DNA of 34,195 nt from a virus. Shown here piece by piece: positions 18,596 through 25,492 of this stretch. The notes beneath the pieces were generated by a model. It was not told the DNA's origin. It ran no database searches and worked only from the letters and a program-made list of their open reading frames with translations. A program made the translations under genes and the position numbers. The number at the start of each line of letters is the position of its first letter. Position 1 is the first letter of the stretch. The stretch covers positions 1 through 34,195 of IMG/VR virus record IMGVR_UViG_3300032236_000501; one strand, 5' to 3'.

Positions 18596-18985
18596 TTAAG
18601 AAACATAGTAAAACTCTGTGGGATTTTGTTTCATCCAGTAGACCATGGTTGAAGGATTCTTACCATAGTGTGCGCTCATTGCGGTAAGGCTGGGAAATAT
18701 GCCCGCTGGTGTTTGCACTGCCTTGGTCTTACGGCGTCCTGGTGTAGTTTTAAGTTCTTTTAAACTTTCTACTGCTGTGGGTCGCTTTCTTGGTTCTTTA
18801 TTGCTACCATCATATAGGACAAATCCACAGGTCTTGCAGGTATGACGGAAGTGTTGCCAGGGTGTGCCATATCTGTGTGCTGTACATTCAATGCGTTGAT
18901 TTGTCACAGTGCGTGGGCAGTATTCACAAGCATGGGCCTGTGGCTCAATGCCCTTGATCTTTAGTTCTAATAGTTTCTTATCCAT
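18596..18985 (-). CDS. Zinc-finger protein with a C-terminal FYYV module
   Basis: The 129-residue protein has CEYC (about 20-23), a C...H pair and CKTC (about 49-52), so it is likely a zinc-binding DNA- or RNA-binding protein. The last ~35 residues (TPAGIFPSLTAMSAHYG, then YWMKQNPTEFYYVS) form a module also found in the protein at 24385-24798 and, by memory, in T4-like cyanophage proteins. A basic linker (GRRKTKAV) joins the parts. A TTG start 60 bases upstream has no ribosome-binding site, so the ATG at 18985 is used, also with a weak site. It is the first gene of the virion-side minus block; a weak TATAAA lies at 19019-19024. A regulatory role is a guess. Confidence 0.6.
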   Translation of the reverse strand: MDKKLLELKIKGIEPQAHACEYCPRTVTNQRIECTAHRYGTPWQHFRHTCKTCGFVLYDGSNKEPRKRPTAVESLKELKTTPGRRKTKAVQTPAGIFPSLTAMSAHYGKNPSTMVYWMKQNPTEFYYVS

Positions 18986-19104
18986 GGTTGGATATTTAAG
19001 GTGCTGGTGGCATTTGGCTTTATAGGTGTGAGAGGAAACTACCAAAACTCATTCACTGGCATCCTGCACTTAGATAGTTAATACCAGCACTGAGTATTTA
19101 CAGC

Positions 19105-19132
19105 CAAAAAAAAGCACCCTGGCGTGGGTGCT
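19105..19132 (-). terminator. Terminator of the early minus-strand operon
   Basis: The minus strand has AGCACCC / GGGTGCT (7 bp, 6-base loop) followed by eight T residues, a textbook rho-independent terminator. It lies about 45 bases beyond the stop of the gene at 19179 and closes the four-gene operon. The rest of the 18986-19178 gap shows only a weak promoter-like TATAAA at 19019-19024 for the next gene. Confidence 0.88.
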
Positions 19133-19178
19133 GAAGTTAGCCCAGTTCTTTAATGTTGATACTTCTGCTGGGACAGGA

Positions 19179-19616
19179 TTATTCTGCGTCTCCAAAATAT
19201 TGTTCAAAAGCACTACCACTAAAACTTAAACCAGTAGTTTTTCCATCTCTGACAATTTCTACACCTTCTGGTAGATTTAGTGTGTAAGGTGCGGAACCTA
19301 CAAACACACGAGGATGTGTAATGTCTATGCGGTCCGCATAACAATAAGTTTTACCATGTATGTTCATGGCTGTATGACTGCTACCATTTGTAATCAATTT
19401 ACGGCGTAGTGCATCGCGATGGATTTTATAAACCACAATGGTTTCGCCTTGCGTTTTGGCATGCTTGATAAAAGCCACAAGGCGTGCATCTCTGTCGTTG
19501 TCTGACAAAAACACCTTGTCAGCATAGGTATTGCCAGTGCTGGGTTTGATATAACCATCTTGTTGGATTTGTTGATGTCGCTCCATTGTGGTAGCGTGAT
19601 AGTACCATTTGGTCAT
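19179..19616 (-). CDS. Possible ADP-ribosyltransferase-fold protein
   Basis: The 145-residue protein begins with YYHATTMERHQQIQQDGYI (5-23), then KVFLSDNDRDARLVAFI (34-50) and a GETIVVYKIHRDAL strand (57-70). This H-x-T ... G ... V-F-L-S ... D-A layout matches small ART/Tpt1-type folds, which move ADP-ribose from NAD to protein or nucleic acid, and related phage proteins of unknown activity. No full R-S-E or H-Y-E triad can be confirmed by eye; YADRID near 93-98 may be a later motif. It is the last gene of a four-gene operon and overlaps gene three by 4 bases. The position in an early-type operon would suit a host-modifying protein. Fold and activity are tentative. Confidence 0.6.
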   Translation of the reverse strand: MTKWYYHATTMERHQQIQQDGYIKPSTGNTYADKVFLSDNDRDARLVAFIKHAKTQGETIVVYKIHRDALRRKLITNGSSHTAMNIHGKTYCYADRIDITHPRVFVGSAPYTLNLPEGVEIVRDGKTTGLSFSGSAFEQYFGDAE

Positions 19617-19783
19617 TCTGCGGCCTCCTCAACAATTTGATATGTAAGTCCGTCATTGTTTATAACCTTAAGATAGCGTAAGACATTACGCATTGTCAAA
19701 TATTCTCTACCAAATAGATGAACAAAACTTGTAGGATCATTTTTGTGTAGAAATCCATAAACTTCTAAGCGGTATGTTTTCAT
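19613..19783 (-). CDS. Small unknown early-operon protein, 56 residues
   Basis: The minus strand from 19783 encodes 56 residues starting MKTYRLEVYGFLHKNDPTSF and ending VEEAAE. I do not recognise a family. The ATG overlaps the previous TGA (ATGA), and its own stop overlaps the next ATG in the same way, so it is the third cistron of a coupled operon. The region just before each start contains GGAGG embedded in the upstream gene's Glu-Ala-Ala codons, which explains the shared EAAE tail. Confidence 0.65.
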   Translation of the reverse strand: MKTYRLEVYGFLHKNDPTSFVHLFGREYLTMRNVLRYLKVINNDGLTYQIVEEAAE

Positions 19784-20004
19784 TCTGCGGCCTCCAATTC
19801 TTTAACAAGAGTAAAATTTGCTTCGTAAATTTGAATATCAAAAACATCACGCAAATGGGTTTTGATATAATCCTCAGCATCATCCAAAGTTTTATATGGC
19901 GAGGAATATTCAAACAAATACTTGCCAATTTCAAACTTTGGCTTCTTACGACCATCAGTTTCTGCGTTATATTTTTGTGAATATTGAATATAAAAGCGTT
20001 TCAT
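19780..20004 (-). CDS. Small unknown early-operon protein, 74 residues
   Basis: The protein starts MKRFYIQYSQKYNAETDGRK and contains YLFEYSSPYKTLDDAEDYIK, ending ELEAAE. It is Tyr/Lys/Glu-rich and mixed alpha/beta, with no membrane segment and no recognised family. Its ATG overlaps the previous gene's TGA and its stop overlaps the next ATG. It is the second cistron of the operon driven from 20205-20233. The junctions at both ends share the sequence encoding EAAE. Confidence 0.7.
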   Translation of the reverse strand: MKRFYIQYSQKYNAETDGRKKPKFEIGKYLFEYSSPYKTLDDAEDYIKTHLRDVFDIQIYEANFTLVKELEAAE

Positions 20005-20025
20005 TCTGCGGCCTCCAATTCTTGT
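19780..20025 (-). repeat. Repeated gene-junction cassette (two 25-bp copies, third partial)
   Basis: The junctions near 19779-19803 and 20000-20024 share 25 identical bases (plus strand TTTCATTCTGCGGCCTCC followed by AATTCTT), and the junction at 19613-19628 shares the 16 central bases. Each copy encodes GAG GCC GCA GAA TGA and so provides GGAGG, the stop codon and the overlapping ATG of the next gene. The coordinates given span the two best copies. Confidence 0.85.
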
Positions 20026-20165
20026 TTAAGCAATTCAATTTTGGTTTCATAACGCAACAAAATTTTAAAAGTCTTAATATCGTTTTCATTATGTTCTATA
20101 AAAACTCTTGCCTTGACAAAGGCATCCAAAAGTTCTTGTAGGGCTGTTTTAGTTTCAGTTTTCAT
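20001..20165 (-). CDS. First early-operon protein, 54 residues, helical
   Basis: The minus strand from 20165 encodes 54 residues beginning MKTETKTALQELLDAFVKAR and ending LLKQELEAAE. It is predicted helical and coiled-coil-like, with no family recognised. It has an AAAGGACG ribosome-binding site and is the first cistron after the sigma70-like promoter at 20205-20233, with a leader of roughly 35 bases. Its TGA overlaps the ATG of the next gene. Small helical early proteins often modify host functions, but nothing here shows that directly. Confidence 0.65.
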   Translation of the reverse strand: MKTETKTALQELLDAFVKARVFIEHNENDIKTFKILLRYETKIELLKQELEAAE

Positions 20166-20204
20166 TTGTGCGTCCTTTCATATAACGCTGTTGAACATGT
20201 TATT

Positions 20205-20233
20205 ATTGTAACACTCTATTTAGCAAAAGTCAA
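20205..20233 (-). promoter_or_regulatory. Sigma70-like promoter of the early minus-strand operon
   Basis: On the minus strand TTGACT (20233-20228), a 17-base spacer and TACAAT (20210-20205) form a near-consensus sigma70 promoter. The spacer contains TTGCTAAATA, shared with the plus-strand promoter at 21689-21717. An overlapping TTGACA lies just upstream. It points to the gene starting at 20165. Confidence 0.8.
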
Positions 20234-20270
20234 CTGTCAAGATTACCAAAAAGTTTTATAACCAAACCAT

Positions 20271-20300
20271 TTGACAAGCCTCTGGATAATATTGTATAAA
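20271..20300 (+). promoter_or_regulatory. Sigma70-like promoter of the small structured RNA
   Basis: TTGACA at 20271-20276 is followed 18 bases later by TATAAA at 20295-20300 (within TATAAATAA). A start about 7 bases beyond the -10 falls at 20306-20308, which is the first base of a 12-bp perfect stem. The promoter faces away from the early operon promoter at 20205-20233. Confidence 0.75.
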
Positions 20301-20305
20301 TAACA

Positions 20306-20512
20306 TGTAGGACAAACAATCGCAATATGTTAGTCATTGTTTGTTGCCATGCAAACTCCTCAGTTTGTCCTACACGCTTAATGTTATTAGGGGCAGGGCT
20401 AGCGGCAAACTTCTCCGCCCATTTAAACTAATACTTTAGGTTTATTAGTCATATAAGTCTAGGCATGCAATGTGCCACTGAAAAGCCCATTTCACAGTGG
20501 GCTTTTCTTTTT
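20306..20512 (+). ncRNA. Candidate structured small RNA, about 207 nt
   Basis: No open frame of note lies here. The predicted transcript opens with a 12-bp perfect stem (20306-20317 with 20363-20374, core GTAGGACAAAC / GTTTGTCCTAC). Inside it a GTTTG/CAAAC hairpin (20339-20343, 20352-20356) and a CAAT/ATTG helix would make a three-way junction. A G/C-rich segment follows (GGGC at 20391, GCCC at 20417), then an ACTAATA/TATTAGT hairpin (20427-20433, 20443-20449), then a strong terminator. Own promoter, own terminator and dense pairing support an independent RNA. It matches no RNA family I know; it could regulate host or phage genes, or mark a replication origin. Confidence 0.7.
20481..20512 (+). 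terminator. Terminator of the small structured RNA
   Basis: AAAAGCCCA (20481-20489) pairs with TGGGCTTTT (20498-20506) around an 8-base loop, followed by CTTTTT. A competing CACTG/CAGTG pairing overlaps the loop. It ends the plus-strand transcript from 20306 and isolates it from the gene at 20591. Confidence 0.88.
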
Positions 20513-20522
20513 GCCAAAAAGA

Positions 20523-20562
20523 TTGACATAATTTGCTGACATGCGTTAATATGTATAAATAA
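20523..20562 (+). promoter_or_regulatory. Promoter region of the plus-strand operon
   Basis: TTGACA at 20523-20528 has TTAATA 17 bases downstream (20546-20551), and a TATAAATAA box follows at 20554-20562 without a matching -35. Either could start the transcript of the gene at 20591. The first bases, TTGACATAATTTGCT, nearly match the start of the promoter at 21689 (TTGACATAATTGCT). Confidence 0.6.
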
Positions 20563-20570
20563 ATTGTGAG

Positions 20571-20588
20571 ACGATGTTGCCGCATCGT
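20571..20588 (+). promoter_or_regulatory. Hairpin just before a start codon
   Basis: ACGATG (20571-20576) and CATCGT (20583-20588) form a 6-bp hairpin that ends two bases before the ATG at 20591. No clear ribosome-binding site precedes this ATG, so the hairpin could hold back or guide translation, or the true start may be the ATG at 20603. Confidence 0.5.
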
Positions 20589-20590
20589 AA

Positions 20591-20983
20591 ATGAAAGACA
20601 ATATGACAAATTTAAAATTATCAAAATCAGAACTTATTGCTTATACAACACTATGGTGTTTGGAACAAGGCATCAAACCTCGCGACTTAGGTTGCGGTTC
20701 GCGTGTTAGTGATGATGGTAAAATTATTAGATTTCAAAACGCACATCCCGCAATTGATGATGTACTCATTTTAATAAAGTTGAGAGATGAATTTTGGGAA
20801 TATTGGAACCACAATGAAAAGTGCGTTTGGGCGGCTCATTGGAGTAGTGTATATCACAAAGGACATCCATTCAAAGCAAAGGCATTAAAAAACATTGAAC
20901 TATTGGCAAACTCAGGCATTTTTAGGCAACAAACAAGATTAGAACTAAGAGAAAAAATAAGGCAACTTCGCGACAGCAACTAA
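20591..20983 (+). CDS. Unknown plus-strand protein, 130 residues
   Basis: I do not recognise this protein. It has a helical N-terminus (LSKSELIAYTTLWCLEQG), a middle with two Cys (GCGSRVSDDG and EKCVWAAHW) and a Trp/His-rich part (EFWEYWNHNEK, SSVYHKGHPF), and a basic helical C-terminus (RLELREKIRQLRD). It starts the plus-strand direction after the promoter region at 20523-20562. A start at Met5 (20603) is also possible because neither ATG has a strong ribosome-binding site. The gene is flanked on both sides by structured non-coding blocks, so it may be regulated post-transcriptionally. Confidence 0.6.
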   Translation: MKDNMTNLKLSKSELIAYTTLWCLEQGIKPRDLGCGSRVSDDGKIIRFQNAHPAIDDVLILIKLRDEFWEYWNHNEKCVWAAHWSSVYHKGHPFKAKALKNIELLANSGIFRQQTRLELREKIRQLRDSN

Positions 20984-21351
20984 TAAAATAGGGATGTAAT
21001 ATGATGGCTAACGGATCCCTCGCTACAAACTGTCTCATTAGAGTTTGAGTAATAGCGGCAAGCCCCACAGCAACGCCAGCACACCGTAGGCGTTGTCCAG
21101 TTGAACATAGTCAAGCATCTGGTTAAATGTGTAATGAGTCTCCGCCCGTGAGGGACTAGTCAAAAATGATTTGATTGGTTAAGGAAGATGGCTTAGGACC
21201 AGTGGAAGCAATTTTTTTTGTTTTTGCGAATCCTATAGCCATCCCCTTGACCACATCATCAAATCATTTCTTACTACTTCTTCAGTTATAAAAAAAGAAG
21301 TAATTGCTATGTAAATGAAATACGAAACGAAGTGAGTGTTTCATTTATGTA
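20984..21351 (+). ncRNA. Candidate structured RNA or replication region, about 370 nt
   Basis: This gap has no plausible gene but is full of inverted repeats. In order: AGGGAT/ATCCCT (20990, 21015); CGCTA+CAAACT with AGTTTG+TAGCG (21021-21057); CAACGCC/GGCGTTG (21071, 21089); CCAG-TTGA/TCAA-CTGG (21097-21122); a hairpin of about 100 nt (21166-21267); TACTTCTT/AAGAAGTA (21275, 21295); and a 14-bp hairpin at 21307-21352. The loop bases CTCATTA (21034-21040) are complementary to TAATGAG (21132-21138), a possible pseudoknot. It does not show tmRNA, RNase P or group I intron signatures that I can see. The strand is assumed from the flanking genes; an origin of replication is the main alternative. 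Confidence 0.6.
21166..21267. repeat. Long imperfect inverted repeat (hairpin of about 100 nt)
   Basis: Outer arms ATGATTTGAT/ATCAAATCAT (21166-21175, 21258-21267) pair perfectly over 10 bp. Next, TGGTTAAGG pairs with CCTTGACCA (21176-21184, 21245-21253) with one G-U, then GATGGC/GCCATC (21187, 21238) and TAGGA/TCCTA (21194, 21231), giving about 30 pairs with small bulges. The loop holds a run of eight T. Confidence 0.85.
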
Positions 21352-21352
21352 G
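21307..21352 (+). promoter_or_regulatory. 14-bp hairpin upstream of the gene at 21400
   Basis: CTATGTAAATGAAA (21307-21320) pairs with TTTCATTTATGTAG (21339-21352), with two wobble pairs. An inner GAAAC/GTTTC can pair as an alternative. It lies about 48 bases before the ATG at 21400 and could be a leader element or RNA-processing site. Confidence 0.55.
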
Positions 21353-21399
21353 TGATTAGATCTTATAAAGATCTTACAATATATAAACAAGGAATTGAA

Positions 21400-21681
21400 A
21401 TGAATTTGTTATATGAAATTGAATCTCTTAGATATCTCAATGAAGAGCAAGAGATATGGGATAAGATTGATCAAATAGAAATGAATCTAAATCCCAAAGA
21501 TCTAATGAAAGCAATTGATTATTTTATTTCACATCTATCACCTGAACATAATCTATCAGGTAAGACCTATGAAACTCTATGTGGTATAGGTAATTGGGAT
21601 AGAGAAAATAATCACCTAACCCATAAGCAAATTATTTTTGCTGTTATGTCTATGGCAGACAATTGGAATCAATTAATCTAA
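21400..21681 (+). CDS. Unknown small acidic protein, 93 residues
   Basis: The protein is helical and acidic (MNLLYEIESLRYLNEEQEIW, then KIDQIEMNLNPKDLMKAIDY). I do not recognise a family. A GTG at 21352 is in frame but sits in a hairpin and lacks a ribosome-binding site; the ATG at 21400 has AAGGA at the right distance and is chosen. It follows the large structured block and ends just before the promoter at 21689-21717, so it may be a single-gene unit between two control regions. Confidence 0.6.
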   Translation: MNLLYEIESLRYLNEEQEIWDKIDQIEMNLNPKDLMKAIDYFISHLSPEHNLSGKTYETLCGIGNWDRENNHLTHKQIIFAVMSMADNWNQLI

Positions 21682-21688
21682 ATAGATC

Positions 21689-21717
21689 TTGACATAATTG
21701 CTAAATAACTGTAACAT
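21689..21717 (+). promoter_or_regulatory. Sigma70-like promoter of the main plus-strand operon
   Basis: TTGACA (21689-21694), a 17-base spacer and TAACAT (21712-21717) precede an operon of eight tightly packed genes starting at 21737. The spacer contains TTGCTAAATA, the same 10-mer found in the minus-strand early promoter. The leader carries a GAAAGGAAA ribosome-binding site. Confidence 0.75.
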
Positions 21718-21736
21718 CATATTGAAAGGAAATGTA

Positions 21737-22189
21737 ATGACAAAGAAATCATACGCAGATAAAGAAGCCCTGGTGTATGAATGGTATGACATACAAATGG
21801 CTTACTGGCACAAATACATGGGCGATATGTATAATCACCCAGATCATTGGGAAGATGCTTTCCATAGTCCTAATACAGACAATTGGTGGGACCTATTTGA
21901 TGTAGCAGATGTAATGAAACGCAAATATCCAGATGAGTGGCGTCATTATGGTTATCTAAGTTCAGACTTAGATGAATTAGAGCGTAGGCTTAAAAACAGC
22001 AAAGATGTAATTAAACCTAAGGTCACCAATTATAATCACGCTATGTTTCGTTTTTGGATGGCATTTAAAGATTTCCTAAATGATGTTGCTGGCACACCCA
22101 CACGCCAATATACAGATGCAGAAAGACGCAGGGCGCATGAAGCAGCCAACCCAACCCCCTTTGAAACACTATTTGAAAGAAAACAATGA
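21737..22189 (+). CDS. Unknown aromatic-rich protein, 150 residues
   Basis: I do not recognise this protein. It is unusually rich in Trp, Tyr and His (YEWYDIQMAYWHKYMGDMYN, then HPDHWEDAF and DNWWDLF), acidic and probably helical, with a basic C-terminal part (DAERRRAHEAANPTPFE). A start 39 bases upstream is possible but lies within the promoter; the ATG at 21737 has GAAAGGAAA before it and is used. It is the first gene of the long plus-strand operon, and its TGA overlaps the next ATG. Confidence 0.6.
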   Translation: MTKKSYADKEALVYEWYDIQMAYWHKYMGDMYNHPDHWEDAFHSPNTDNWWDLFDVADVMKRKYPDEWRHYGYLSSDLDELERRLKNSKDVIKPKVTNYNHAMFRFWMAFKDFLNDVAGTPTRQYTDAERRRAHEAANPTPFETLFERKQ

Positions 22190-22548
22190 ACCCAGATAAG
22201 AAATGGAAACGCTATACTCGTGTTGGTGATGTATGGGTCAACATGACCAAATATCGCCAAATGATCAAACCCACTGGCACAGGATGCCTAGAATGGACGG
22301 GCCCAAAACATCGCCAAGGTTATGGATTTGTGGGCGTGTTAGATCAAAATGGTAATCGCAAAATGACTGTGGCACACCGTGTGGCAATGCGTATCAAATT
22401 AGGACAAGCACTGTCAACAGGTGATGATGTTAAACATGCCTGTGGCAATAACCTATGTGTAAATCCAGCACACCTATATCTACGAACCAAAGAGGAGACT
22501 GCAATTGAACTCACAGTTGATGCAAAAATACCAGCACTCGCAAAATGA
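22186..22548 (+). CDS. HNH endonuclease
   Basis: The 120-residue protein shows the phage HNH layout: GCLEWTGPKHRQGYGFVGV (33-51), VAHR (63-66) and HACGNNLCVNPAHLYL (84-99), giving His64 and His84, two Cys (86, 91), Asn93 and His96 for zinc and catalytic metal. Such proteins cut or nick DNA and are often free-standing homing endonucleases or packaging helpers. Here it lies in a plus-strand operon away from the terminase, which favours a mobile or early role over packaging. The ATG overlaps the previous TGA, and the gene overlaps the next by 44 bases. Active-site residues look intact. Confidence 0.8.
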   Translation: MNPDKKWKRYTRVGDVWVNMTKYRQMIKPTGTGCLEWTGPKHRQGYGFVGVLDQNGNRKMTVAHRVAMRIKLGQALSTGDDVKHACGNNLCVNPAHLYLRTKEETAIELTVDAKIPALAK

Positions 22549-23041
22549 CGCTTGGGTCTGGCAGTATGCCACCTGGGCAGATGTAGAGGACATGTATGCT
22601 TTAGCCAAGCGTCATTTTGAGCGTGAGATGGACAGTATTCTCACAATCAATGATGAAGGCTACAAATACGCTCTTGATATATCAACTAGTCACCAAAGAC
22701 ATAATTTGGCCTTGGAACAGTTGTTGGTTTGTCGCGATAAAACCACAGGCGATCTACTGGCTTATTCATGGATTGGGCGCGGACATCGCACTCCATATTC
22801 AAATGATGAAATGGCAGAAGCCAGGATGTTACATTTGGATTTAGATCTCAGCCCACGCACACGCATACAACTAATTGTGCAGGCCATAAGTTATTGGATC
22901 ACATGGTGTGAAGCCTGCCAAATACCCGTGTTAGTATCAACCAGCATCCGTGAAGATCAGGCTTCATTTTTACGCCTGCATGAACGATTAGGATTCATTG
23001 TGCGTGGCGGAATATGCTATAAAAGGATTATACCAAAATGA
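22505..23041 (+). CDS. GNAT-like acetyltransferase
   Basis: The 178-residue protein fits the GNAT fold: strand LLVCRDKTTGDLLAYSWIG (about 73-91), EARMLHLDLDLSPRTRIQL as the acetyl-CoA-site strand and loop region, and the closing pattern ASFLRLHERLGFIVRG typical of GNAT C-termini (N-x-x-x-x-x-y-x-k-x-G-F). The substrate is unknown. TTG at 22505 is taken as start because AGGAG (22493-22497) lies 7 bases upstream; the ATG at 22520 has no such site. It overlaps the HNH gene, and its TGA overlaps the next ATG, so the operon is tightly coupled. Confidence 0.65.
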   Translation: MNSQLMQKYQHSQNDAWVWQYATWADVEDMYALAKRHFEREMDSILTINDEGYKYALDISTSHQRHNLALEQLLVCRDKTTGDLLAYSWIGRGHRTPYSNDEMAEARMLHLDLDLSPRTRIQLIVQAISYWITWCEACQIPVLVSTSIREDQASFLRLHERLGFIVRGGICYKRIIPK

Positions 23042-23337
23042 GTCATAGTACAGGTTTAAGTTCTGTAATGGGATCAAACATTAGTGGTGCTTTAGGTAGC
23101 AGTATGAACAATGCCCTACAAAATTCAATGAATTTTAATCAACAGGCCGCACAACAATATAATGCCATAATGGCACAAAAGGCACAATATAATGCCAACA
23201 GACAGACATATGAATGGGTATGGAATGGCCATCCCGTGACTATTACAGAATTCGCTGAACTAGCCTACGGTGACTCACCACAGAGGACCATGTTCCTCTT
23301 AAAATATTCAGATAAAAAGGAAAACAAAAATGCTTAA
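23038..23337 (+). CDS. Unknown protein with a low-complexity N-terminus, 99 residues
   Basis: The N-terminal half is Ser/Asn/Gln-rich (GLSSVMGSNISGALGSSMNN, then NFNQQAAQQYNAIMAQKAQY). The C-terminal half (EWVWNGHPVTITEFAELAYG, then FLLKYSDKKENK) looks folded. I do not recognise a family. Its start overlaps the previous stop and its end overlaps the co-chaperonin start by 8 bases. The N-terminal composition resembles virion proteins, but it lies in the early-side operon. Function unknown. Confidence 0.6.
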   Translation: MSHSTGLSSVMGSNISGALGSSMNNALQNSMNFNQQAAQQYNAIMAQKAQYNANRQTYEWVWNGHPVTITEFAELAYGDSPQRTMFLLKYSDKKENKNA

Positions 23338-23596
23338 GGCAGTAGGAACAAAATTAGTTATAGAGCGTGTGGAACGCGAACAAAAGTCAGCAGGTGGTAT
23401 TTTTATCACTAATCAAGCAGACCCAAATCCCCTAGCAAAGATCATCAGCATTGGCAGTCAGGTCAAGATTGATGTCTGCATTGGTGATCAAGCATCTATT
23501 AGTTGGACCAACACAGCACCACAACCATATCAAGGCAAGACCTATTATATCGTGGACGAAACTGGCGTGTTTGCTGTGGAGAAAGATAATGAGTGA
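23330..23596 (+). CDS. GroES-like co-chaperonin (Cpn10)
   Basis: The 88-residue protein fits Cpn10: an opening strand (GTKLVIERVE), the mobile-loop pattern EQKSAGGIFITNQ (17-29) whose GGI-F-I hydrophobic tripeptide should dock on GroEL, a KIISIG turn (38-42), VGD-like IGDQASISW, and a closing YYIVDETGVFAVEK. It is slightly shorter than GroES (97) because the roof loop region is reduced. No GroEL is encoded, so it would pair with host GroEL, as T4 gp31 does for capsid folding. The neighbours are unrelated small genes with overlapping ends. Activity is inferred from the family. Confidence 0.82.
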   Translation: MLKAVGTKLVIERVEREQKSAGGIFITNQADPNPLAKIISIGSQVKIDVCIGDQASISWTNTAPQPYQGKTYYIVDETGVFAVEKDNE

Positions 23597-23906
23597 AAAA
23601 ATTATAACATCAGCACCCACAGAAGATGAAGTTCTAACTGCTTCATTGAAATTAATTGTAGATCGTTTTGTGGACATGGGCTATGAAGAAAACATTATTT
23701 TTGGCAAAGTAAATCTTATACTGAATAATTTTATTACTCCTGAAGGTGGATTTACACCAGAATATATTGAACTGGCCACCAACGCACTTAAGATGCGAGC
23801 CAGCAAAGAATTTGAACAAGCCTTAATGGAACCAGAACGCCCCACAAATGATGGATCAGGTATCAGTCTTATTGTGCCAGGTGGAGGTATTGGAGGAAAA
23901 TTGTAA
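23589..23906 (+). CDS. Unknown acidic protein, 105 residues
   Basis: I do not recognise this protein. It is acidic and helical (SAPTEDEVLTASLKLIVDRF, then YIELATNALKMRASKEFEQA), with a Gly-rich tail (LIVPGGGIGGKL). The ATG at 23589 overlaps the end of the co-chaperonin gene by 8 bases; a longer upstream frame exists but runs through that gene and is not used. The stop overlaps the ATG of the next gene by one base. Co-expression with the co-chaperonin is clear; a shared function is not. Confidence 0.6.
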   Translation: MSEKIITSAPTEDEVLTASLKLIVDRFVDMGYEENIIFGKVNLILNNFITPEGGFTPEYIELATNALKMRASKEFEQALMEPERPTNDGSGISLIVPGGGIGGKL

Positions 23907-24388
23907 TGTATGGACAACCTCTAAAAGGACCAATGAAGGTCCGTGACCATCCACTATACCGTCGTTGGAGTTGTATGCGCCAGGTTTGCCTTAACCCCAA
24001 CCACGCAGACTACGCCAAATACGGAGGCAAGGGCATAAAGATATCATCTGAATTTGATGAATTTTGGGACTTTGTGGATTTGGTTGAAAGGCGTTTGGGC
24101 TATCCACAAGACTTTGACTATCGTTGGAAACTAAGCCGCAAGGATCAACATGGCGATTACACTATTCGTAATCTTCGTTGGGACAAAGCCGCTGAAGTGG
24201 GACGCCGCTGTGATAGGGCTTTTAAATTAACCTATAAAGGCAAGACTAAAAGCCTGCGTTCTTGGGCAGAAGAATTAGGTATAAACTTTCATACCTTATT
24301 GAGTAGACGAGAACGCAATTGGACACCAGCACAGATACTAGGTTACAGGCCAGGTCCTCGTGCCAAAGAAAGAATGAAAAAGAAATGA
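23906..24388 (+). CDS. Homing-endonuclease-like DNA-binding protein (YGGKGI type)
   Basis: The 160-residue protein has the phage pattern HPLYRRWSCMRQVC (15-28), DYAKYGGKGIKIS (35-47), then a KLSRKDQHGDYTIRNLRW block (75-92), found in small nuclease or DNA-binding proteins related to HNH homing endonucleases. The C-terminal part (SLRSWAEELGINFHTLLSRR, then a W-x-P-x-x-IL turn, about 117-145) is a helix-turn-helix module often fused to such nucleases. A GGAGGA ribosome-binding site precedes the ATG, which overlaps the prior stop by one base. No classic HNH triad is seen, so catalytic activity is uncertain; DNA binding is likely. Confidence 0.7.
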   Translation: MYGQPLKGPMKVRDHPLYRRWSCMRQVCLNPNHADYAKYGGKGIKISSEFDEFWDFVDLVERRLGYPQDFDYRWKLSRKDQHGDYTIRNLRWDKAAEVGRRCDRAFKLTYKGKTKSLRSWAEELGINFHTLLSRRERNWTPAQILGYRPGPRAKERMKKK

Positions 24389-24798
24389 CAACATTAACTG
24401 AAGAACAAATCTCTGTGTTAAATTACAAAGAATGTAAAGATGCACTTAAAACTTTGAATAAGACCTATCCACTGGATGTGCCTATCAAAGAATTAACGGC
24501 AGAACAATGGGCATTCTGTGATGATATTACTAATACACTATTATGGCTTGAAGATAGGATCAAATCCTTTGAAGATCAACGAATTTTAAGCATGAATCCC
24601 AATGATACACAGTCATTACCAGTGAAAAACAAGCCAGAAATTAAACTTGAAGACACACGCCGTCCTAGCAAGCGATTTAGTATGCAGGGCGTGATTTATG
24701 AAAATGTAAAGGTAGCCGCACTAAAGACAGGCATTAAGATAGGCACACTGAGGACCTATGTCACACGCAAGCCAGATCAATATTTTTATGTAGATTGA
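24385..24798 (+). CDS. Protein with the shared C-terminal FYV module, 137 residues
   Basis: The N-terminal ~90 residues are helical and acidic (LTEEQISVLNYKECKDALKT, then LTAEQWAFCDDITNTLLWLE) and not recognised. The last ~40 residues (SKRFSMQGVIYENVKVAALK, then TLRTYVTRKPDQYFYVD) match in layout the C-terminus of the minus-strand zinc-finger protein at 18596-18985, a G-[IV]-[FY]...A...[TS]-[LM]...P-x-x-[FY]-[FY]-Y-V pattern. This is probably a small DNA-binding module. The ATG overlaps the preceding TGA. It is the last gene of the plus-strand operon and meets the convergent holin-like gene with no gap. Confidence 0.6.
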   Translation: MTTLTEEQISVLNYKECKDALKTLNKTYPLDVPIKELTAEQWAFCDDITNTLLWLEDRIKSFEDQRILSMNPNDTQSLPVKNKPEIKLEDTRRPSKRFSMQGVIYENVKVAALKTGIKIGTLRTYVTRKPDQYFYVD

Positions 24799-25042: not shown

Positions 25043-25492
25043 TTAGTATTCCTGGCGACTGTCTAAAGTACTACGCAACATCCAACAGAACTTTTGTAGG
25101 GTGCGTACACGATCCTGTGCATAGTTGTTGATGTGGCTGTATTCTACTGTGTCTGTGACAGATTCCAAATTATGAAAAACATCAATTAAGATTTCAATGT
25201 CATCATAAACTGCTTGTAGGAATTCATCTCCATCACCATCATCATAGATTGGTTGATCTGATACCTGACTATCTGCGATCACATCACTTAGCACACATGG
25301 AACTTCTAATTTTAAGGTACGCATGATTTCTGCTAGATCATCTACTGAGGCAAAAATATCATCATAAATTTTATTCAATAACTTGTGGTCACTGTAAAAG
25401 TTACGACCTGTGGTGTTCCAATGTGCCGCATGACTTTTGTAATAGGCTACAAAACTTGTGGCAAATGTCTTAATTAATTCTTGTTCAATCAT
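25043..25492 (-). CDS. Dps-like ferritin-family protein
   Basis: The 149-residue protein fits the Dps family: AYYKSHAAHWNTTGRNFYSD (16-35) followed by HKLLNKIYDDIFASVDDLAE (36-55). The inter-subunit ferroxidase residues read His24, His36, Asn40, Asp51 and Glu55, so only the second-position Asp is replaced by Asn. Dps proteins oxidise iron with peroxide and can shield DNA. It sits between ejection proteins and the holin-like gene with very short gaps (9 bp and 1 bp), so it is made late. It could protect DNA, limit oxidative damage during lysis, or travel in the virion; none is shown. No lysine-rich DNA-binding tail is seen. Confidence 0.82.
   Translation of the reverse strand: MIEQELIKTFATSFVAYYKSHAAHWNTTGRNFYSDHKLLNKIYDDIFASVDDLAEIMRTLKLEVPCVLSDVIADSQVSDQPIYDDGDGDEFLQAVYDDIEILIDVFHNLESVTDTVEYSHINNYAQDRVRTLQKFCWMLRSTLDSRQEY

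Follow-up and report, generated by a model that had tools for sequence, protein, structure and literature searches.

The C4 RNA lies upstream of its target on the same strand and is cut from a transcript shared with it, sar RNA is transcribed from the strand opposite to its target, OOP RNA is antisense to cII and also comes from the opposite strand, and the pRNA of phi29 is a part of the packaging motor with a conserved three-way junction and a domain closed by a long helix. The C4 antisense RNA of phages P1 and P7 carries its complementary sequences in loops and has its target near a ribosome-binding site, the sar RNA of phage P22 (68/69 nt) blocks the initiation of translation by pairing with an mRNA of the phage, and the OOP RNA of lambdoid phages is a short, free-standing RNA expressed from a promoter of its own within the early region (PMC12197685). 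We analysed the window, the whole 34,195-nt stretch of IMG/VR virus record IMGVR_UViG_3300032236_000501 (positions 1–34,195), which belongs to an uncultivated bacterial virus. Positions 20306–20512 form a free-standing transcription unit with its own promoter, no gene, a strong terminator and a fold better than that of shuffled sequences. We consider it fairly probable that this unit specifies a phage antisense small RNA which pairs with the leader of the neighbouring early operon, most likely repressing its first gene.

Among the described systems, C4 would be the one that works most like this RNA unit. Both have the marks of a phage antisense RNA with loop-borne complementarity and a target near the ribosome-binding site, and the RNA unit also resembles C4 in its same-strand location upstream of the proposed target. 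Complementarity of this C4 type between loop and target leader is strong in three relatives of the unit (L007, L050 and L087, listed below), moderate in L051, and weak in the window and L090. However, C4 is about 77 nt long and cut from the transcript of its target, whereas the RNA unit is about 200 nt long, with two abutting helices and a different target gene. Since the Rfam C4 covariance model gave no match to the unit, which has its own predicted promoter and terminator and a different fold, we do not place it in the C4 family. Like sar, it is proposed to be a small phage RNA pairing with a phage mRNA, but it lies on the same strand as its target and the pairing is imperfect. As with OOP, the unit is short, stands alone in the early region of a phage and has a promoter to itself, and no sequence relation to OOP was found. 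The likeness to phi29 pRNA lies in a phage RNA domain closed by a long helix; the tests for pRNA gave neither a match to its Rfam model nor a conserved three-way junction.

The transcription unit and its phage

The portal, the major head protein and the terminase can be identified in the window. Among the deposited phages of the collection searched, none has a terminase more than 51% identical to that of the window; the nearest is MW202484.1, a podovirus genome from Manatee Spring in which a motif search found no comparable RNA unit. Beside this terminase comparison, IMG/VR holds relatives at 71–89% identity in 38 loci. The window also encodes a GroES-like co-chaperonin (Cpn10) and a ferritin-like protein (23330–23596 and 25043–25492), and at 19600–20020 on the minus strand adjoining small genes have an almost identical GGAGGCCGCAGAATG start region, which through gene overlap also yields a repeated EAAE-like protein C-terminus.

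The RNA unit lies between a minus-strand operon (promoter TTGACT-17-TACAAT, 20233–20205) and the plus-strand early operon (TTGACA at 20523). The features of the region are as follows.

20271–20300, plus strand: sigma-70-type promoter of the RNA (TTGACA 20271–20276, 18-nt spacer, TATAAA 20295–20300), followed by AATAACATG
20306–20512, plus strand: small structured RNA, free-standing, about 207 nt (limits predicted), with same-architecture homologues and helix covariation
20306–20374, plus strand: domain 1, helix P1 (20306–20317 with 20363–20374) closing a variable internal part; covariation
20376–20441, plus strand: domain 2, helix P2 (20376–20390 with 20428–20441), abutting P1, its apical part exposing the seed; covariation
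20402–20408, plus strand: seed GCGGCAA in the P2 loop, complement of TTGCCGC in the downstream leader
20462–20476, plus strand: hairpin with the conserved UGCAAUG loop, a motif also present in relatives
20480–20512, plus strand: intrinsic terminator (stem 20480–20507, 12 pairs, T5 tail)
20523–20559, plus strand: promoter region of the downstream early mRNA (TTGACA 20523–20528; TATAAA 20554–20559), similarly positioned in L007, L051 and L090
20571–20588, plus strand: leader hairpin ACGATG-TTGCCG-CATCGT, whose loop presents the target TTGCCGC (20577–20583), just ahead of the ATG of the first early gene
20574–20594, plus strand: possible leader peptide ORF, MLPHRK, read from the sequence and variably conserved among members, its stop overlapping the ATG of the first early gene
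20591–20983, plus strand: first early-operon gene, 130 aa, of no known family, the proposed regulated gene

A sequence-only reading of this DNA had described a TTGACA-18-TATAAA promoter with a predicted start at 20306–20308, a 12-bp perfect stem beginning at the first transcribed base, and a gene-free transcript of about 207 nt ending at a strong terminator, and all of these are present. The unit folds at −60.5 kcal/mol (z −3.55) and beats 199 of 200 dinucleotide shuffles, one being as good. Inside it we found no plus-strand ORF of at least 50 aa, and ARAGORN returned neither a tRNA nor a tmRNA. Rfam gave chance matches only, at gathering and at permissive thresholds, in agreement with the earlier statement that the RNA resembles no known family, and a DNA search of deposited phages returned only 35-base chance matches.

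The same promoter arrangement occurs in L007, L026, L051, L087 and L090, and from it the RNA would be transcribed in vivo. The AATAACATG after the −10 element is a start-site motif general in the promoters of this phage group (window 20233, minus; L026 307, plus; L090 3791, minus); therefore, conservation at the start of the RNA is due in part to the promoter, and we did not count it as evidence for the RNA. A longer promoter motif, consisting of TTGACA, often TGCTAAATA in the spacer, TATAAT and then AATAACATG at the start site, is found in the window at 20233–20205 (minus) and 20271–20305 (plus) and also in L007, L026, L050 and L090.

Relatives and their common architecture

Using exact promoter-plus-start patterns and early-gene proteins, we traced five further full-length relatives and one truncated relative in phages of the same terminase clade.

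L007, 196–386, plus strand: RNA homologue (L043, L044 and L047–L049 have the same sequence)
L051, 3576–3762, plus strand: RNA homologue
L090, 3865–4060, plus strand: RNA homologue
L087, about 5876–5710, minus strand: RNA homologue
L050, about 5591–5424, minus strand: RNA homologue
L026, contig end: truncated copy

The terminases of the L007, L051 and L090 phages are 82–89% identical to that of the window; the L087 contig covers only the first 21 terminase residues, and L050 is linked through its early genes. Relatives sought through the 130-aa gene and in bacterial genomes were not found. When 1.08 Mb of sequence, counting both strands, was scanned with a structure descriptor, L090, L051 and L007 came out on top and no further convincing member emerged; the leader pattern GTGAGACRATG..TGCCGC recovered L090 as the one true member, beside five chance loci, and in IMG/VR the loci newly returned by the pattern TGTTTCTCCAA..TTACTTTTAA were coding chance matches. 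A rod-like RNA candidate at L030 4088–4282 (minus), identical in L054 and L068, has 5' and 3' ends that form a long helix (z −5.1) and sits directly before an early gene in these more distant relatives; we judged it a different element.

The six full-length RNAs barely align, yet each folds on its own into P1, an abutting P2 and a terminator, with z between −3.6 and −5.8. Their common architecture consists of the promoter, the closing helix P1, the directly abutting P2, a hairpin with a UGCAAYG loop, and the terminator. This loop is common to all six (GCAAUG in L050) and stands just before the terminator or caps it. Compensatory change, the property on which the earlier description staked its RNA, is evident in these homologues: 63 of 66 cells are paired in P1 and 9 of its 11 columns have changed on both sides; for P2 the figures are 56 of 58 cells and 9 of 10 columns. 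The helices were aligned by hand from individual predicted folds and one bulged base of the window's P2 was omitted, which leans toward pairing. Permuting the strands among members, a control that answers this bias only in part, matched the observed pairing in 1 of 720 arrangements for P1 (the true pairing only) and 2 of 720 for P2 (the true pairing and one equivalent swap). The three-way junction once proposed for the 5' part is only weakly present in the minimum-energy fold of the window's RNA, inside P1, and is not common to the relatives. A covariance model built from L090 alone recovered L007 (E 0.00018) and, weakly, L051 (E 0.11); it missed the window, L050 and L087, which are therefore counted as members by their promoter, their helices, their loop motifs and where they lie.

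Such a strongly conserved fold, together with the UGCAAYG loop, would also suit a structured small RNA that acts in trans on host RNAs or binds a protein, for example a chaperone or, as 6S RNA does, RNA polymerase, the likeness of seed and leader being incidental or secondary. A motif resembling a protein-binding site points the same way: TTTTGTTTCTCC lies inside P1 in L007, L051, L087 and L026, followed in the first three by TTACTTTTAAC, while P1 of the window and L090 has neither. For 6S RNA in particular, the tests of the unit gave no Rfam match and no single long rod with a central bubble, which argues against that form of the explanation. The lineage-specific complementarity described below also counts against a trans or protein-binding role, as does a distance to the leader that stays constant while the next gene differs, and we regard such a role as unlikely.

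Complementarity between the P2 loop and the downstream leader

What is new here is a seed in the P2 loop that is complementary to the leader of the next mRNA. The target TTGCCGC lies 59–65 nt past the RNA end in five of the six members (window, L007, L051, L087 and L090), whatever gene comes next, and 333 nt past it in L050, before the second gene. The seed reads GCGGCAA in the window, L090, L050 and L087, CGGCAGG in L007 and GGCAAGG in L051. Extended pairing of about 17–20 bp, with bulges and specific to each lineage, is found in L007 (GATCTTTCTCCA plus CGGC-AGGCTG), L050 (GAGTC-CTTTTGTTAGCGGCAA) and L087 (CTCTTTC-TTATAGCGGCAA), and L051 pairs less strongly.

We compared each cognate leader with all other 57-nt windows of its own contig. 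In L007, L050 and L087 no other was as good, and L051 gave p 0.03. The 7-bp match of L090 gave p 0.11, and that of the window, with a weak extension, is not unusual alone (p 0.21), which would also be expected of an RNA acting in trans. Over the six members, the Fisher combined p for P2 loop and leader is about 1e-7, a value that is optimistic and partly circular because TTGCCGC was noticed before testing and the leader was anchored on the motif. Cognate loop and leader pairs also beat swaps among phages, an equal or better sum being reached in 5 of 720 permutations. The P1 loops, except in L090, have no comparable complementarity to the leader, and full-length duplex energies were uninformative on pairing. 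From these comparisons we infer that RNA and leader pair in the phage. The leader of L090, like that of the window, is able to fold at the target, its fold being no better than shuffles; a short contact between two loops in the window and L090, with the other members pairing over a long linear stretch, would be consistent with their unequal match lengths.

Segments that complement each other across an intrinsic terminator, adjacent and on the same strand, are also what a cis-acting attenuator would have. The RNA would then be the 5' part of a read-through early transcript, with a conditional terminator and a P2 loop pairing within the same molecule. However, in most members TTGACA or TTTACA with a −10 gives the leader a promoter-like sequence to itself, and the terminator is strong in every member. 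In the window the exact −10 is uncertain because TATAAA at 20554–20559 is too far from TTGACA for a standard pair. We judge an attenuator improbable.

The divergent intergenic location and the few recognisable replication genes of the phage might instead indicate that the inverted pair TTGCCGC/GCGGCAA is a DNA operator or an origin element, with the RNA as a replication primer or by-product. Among 18 window proteins compared with PHROGs there was neither a DNA polymerase nor a helicase, and for those 18 the earlier remark that the phage lacks visible replication genes holds. Against this DNA-level explanation, the helices covary as RNA, the complementary stretches are long, bulged and different between lineages, and the GC-skew profile has no clear turn at this place. 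In addition, comparison of the window (18596–24798) with L007 (187–5816) reveals an inversion, relative to the flanking genes, of the early block that the RNA heads, and the RNA still stands at the point of divergent transcription. We therefore consider an operator or origin role very improbable.

Proposed control of the early operon

Computation bears out the unit, its conserved fold and the complementarity of seed and leader with covariation; the target and the repressing direction are what we deduce from them. In the antisense model, the RNA would be made from its own promoter, end at its own terminator and fold into the constrained, abutting P1 and P2, the UGCAAYG hairpin and the terminator. 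The P2 loop would offer its seed to TTGCCGC near the 5' end of the early-operon mRNA, pairing at or near the ribosome-binding site or the start of the leader ORF, at least in the window, L090 and L050. Such pairing would lower translation of the first early gene, or alter its stability, and the outcome would be a timed or copy-number-dependent brake on the early operon. The likelier sign would be repression, since the pairing reaches the region of ribosome binding in L050 and the possible leader-ORF start in the window and L090. This sign is tentative, as the paired site overlaps the Shine-Dalgarno sequence only in some members, and stabilisation of the mRNA 5' end would be the less likely effect. 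Antisense control of the early operon would explain the same-strand adjacency, the placement of the seed in a loop and the co-variation, and it leaves unexplained the TTTTGTTTCTCC motif in P1 of four members, which the window lacks.

The gene behind the leader encodes a 130-aa protein in the window, a 332-aa protein in L090, a 232-aa protein in L007 and L051, and a GIY-YIG-like protein in L087 and L050. Since this gene varies, the RNA and leader appear to be kept as a module independent of it, and may serve as an exchangeable control cassette. The RNA is thus probably a built-in switch for the early genes of the virus, and the results suggest that an RNA brake controls the early genes of these phages. 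Of the functions suggested from the sequence, a regulatory one is probable through base pairing with the leader, and no evidence was found for an anti-host or an origin or primer role. If true, phages known only from metagenomes have an RNA family that is supported by covariation, has a concrete target and is missing from Rfam. More tentatively, and with some doubt on our part, the compact module, made up of promoter, two-helix fold, terminator and, about 60 nt further on, the target leader, may stand for a class of regulatory RNA new among phages. Seed and target would evolve together at a fixed position while one early gene replaces another behind them, so that the pairing code would be private to each phage lineage and could in addition provide immunity at the RNA level among related phages.

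A second non-coding stretch with a stronger fold (z −5.4) lies in the window at 21004–21275 on the plus strand, between the genes at 20591–20983 and 21352–21681. It was unmatched in Rfam, the deposited phages and the fetched loci. This stretch contains a long hairpin of about 45 bp and a further GCGGCAA at 21055; it may have arisen by insertion, or may act as a decoy for the target of the RNA unit.
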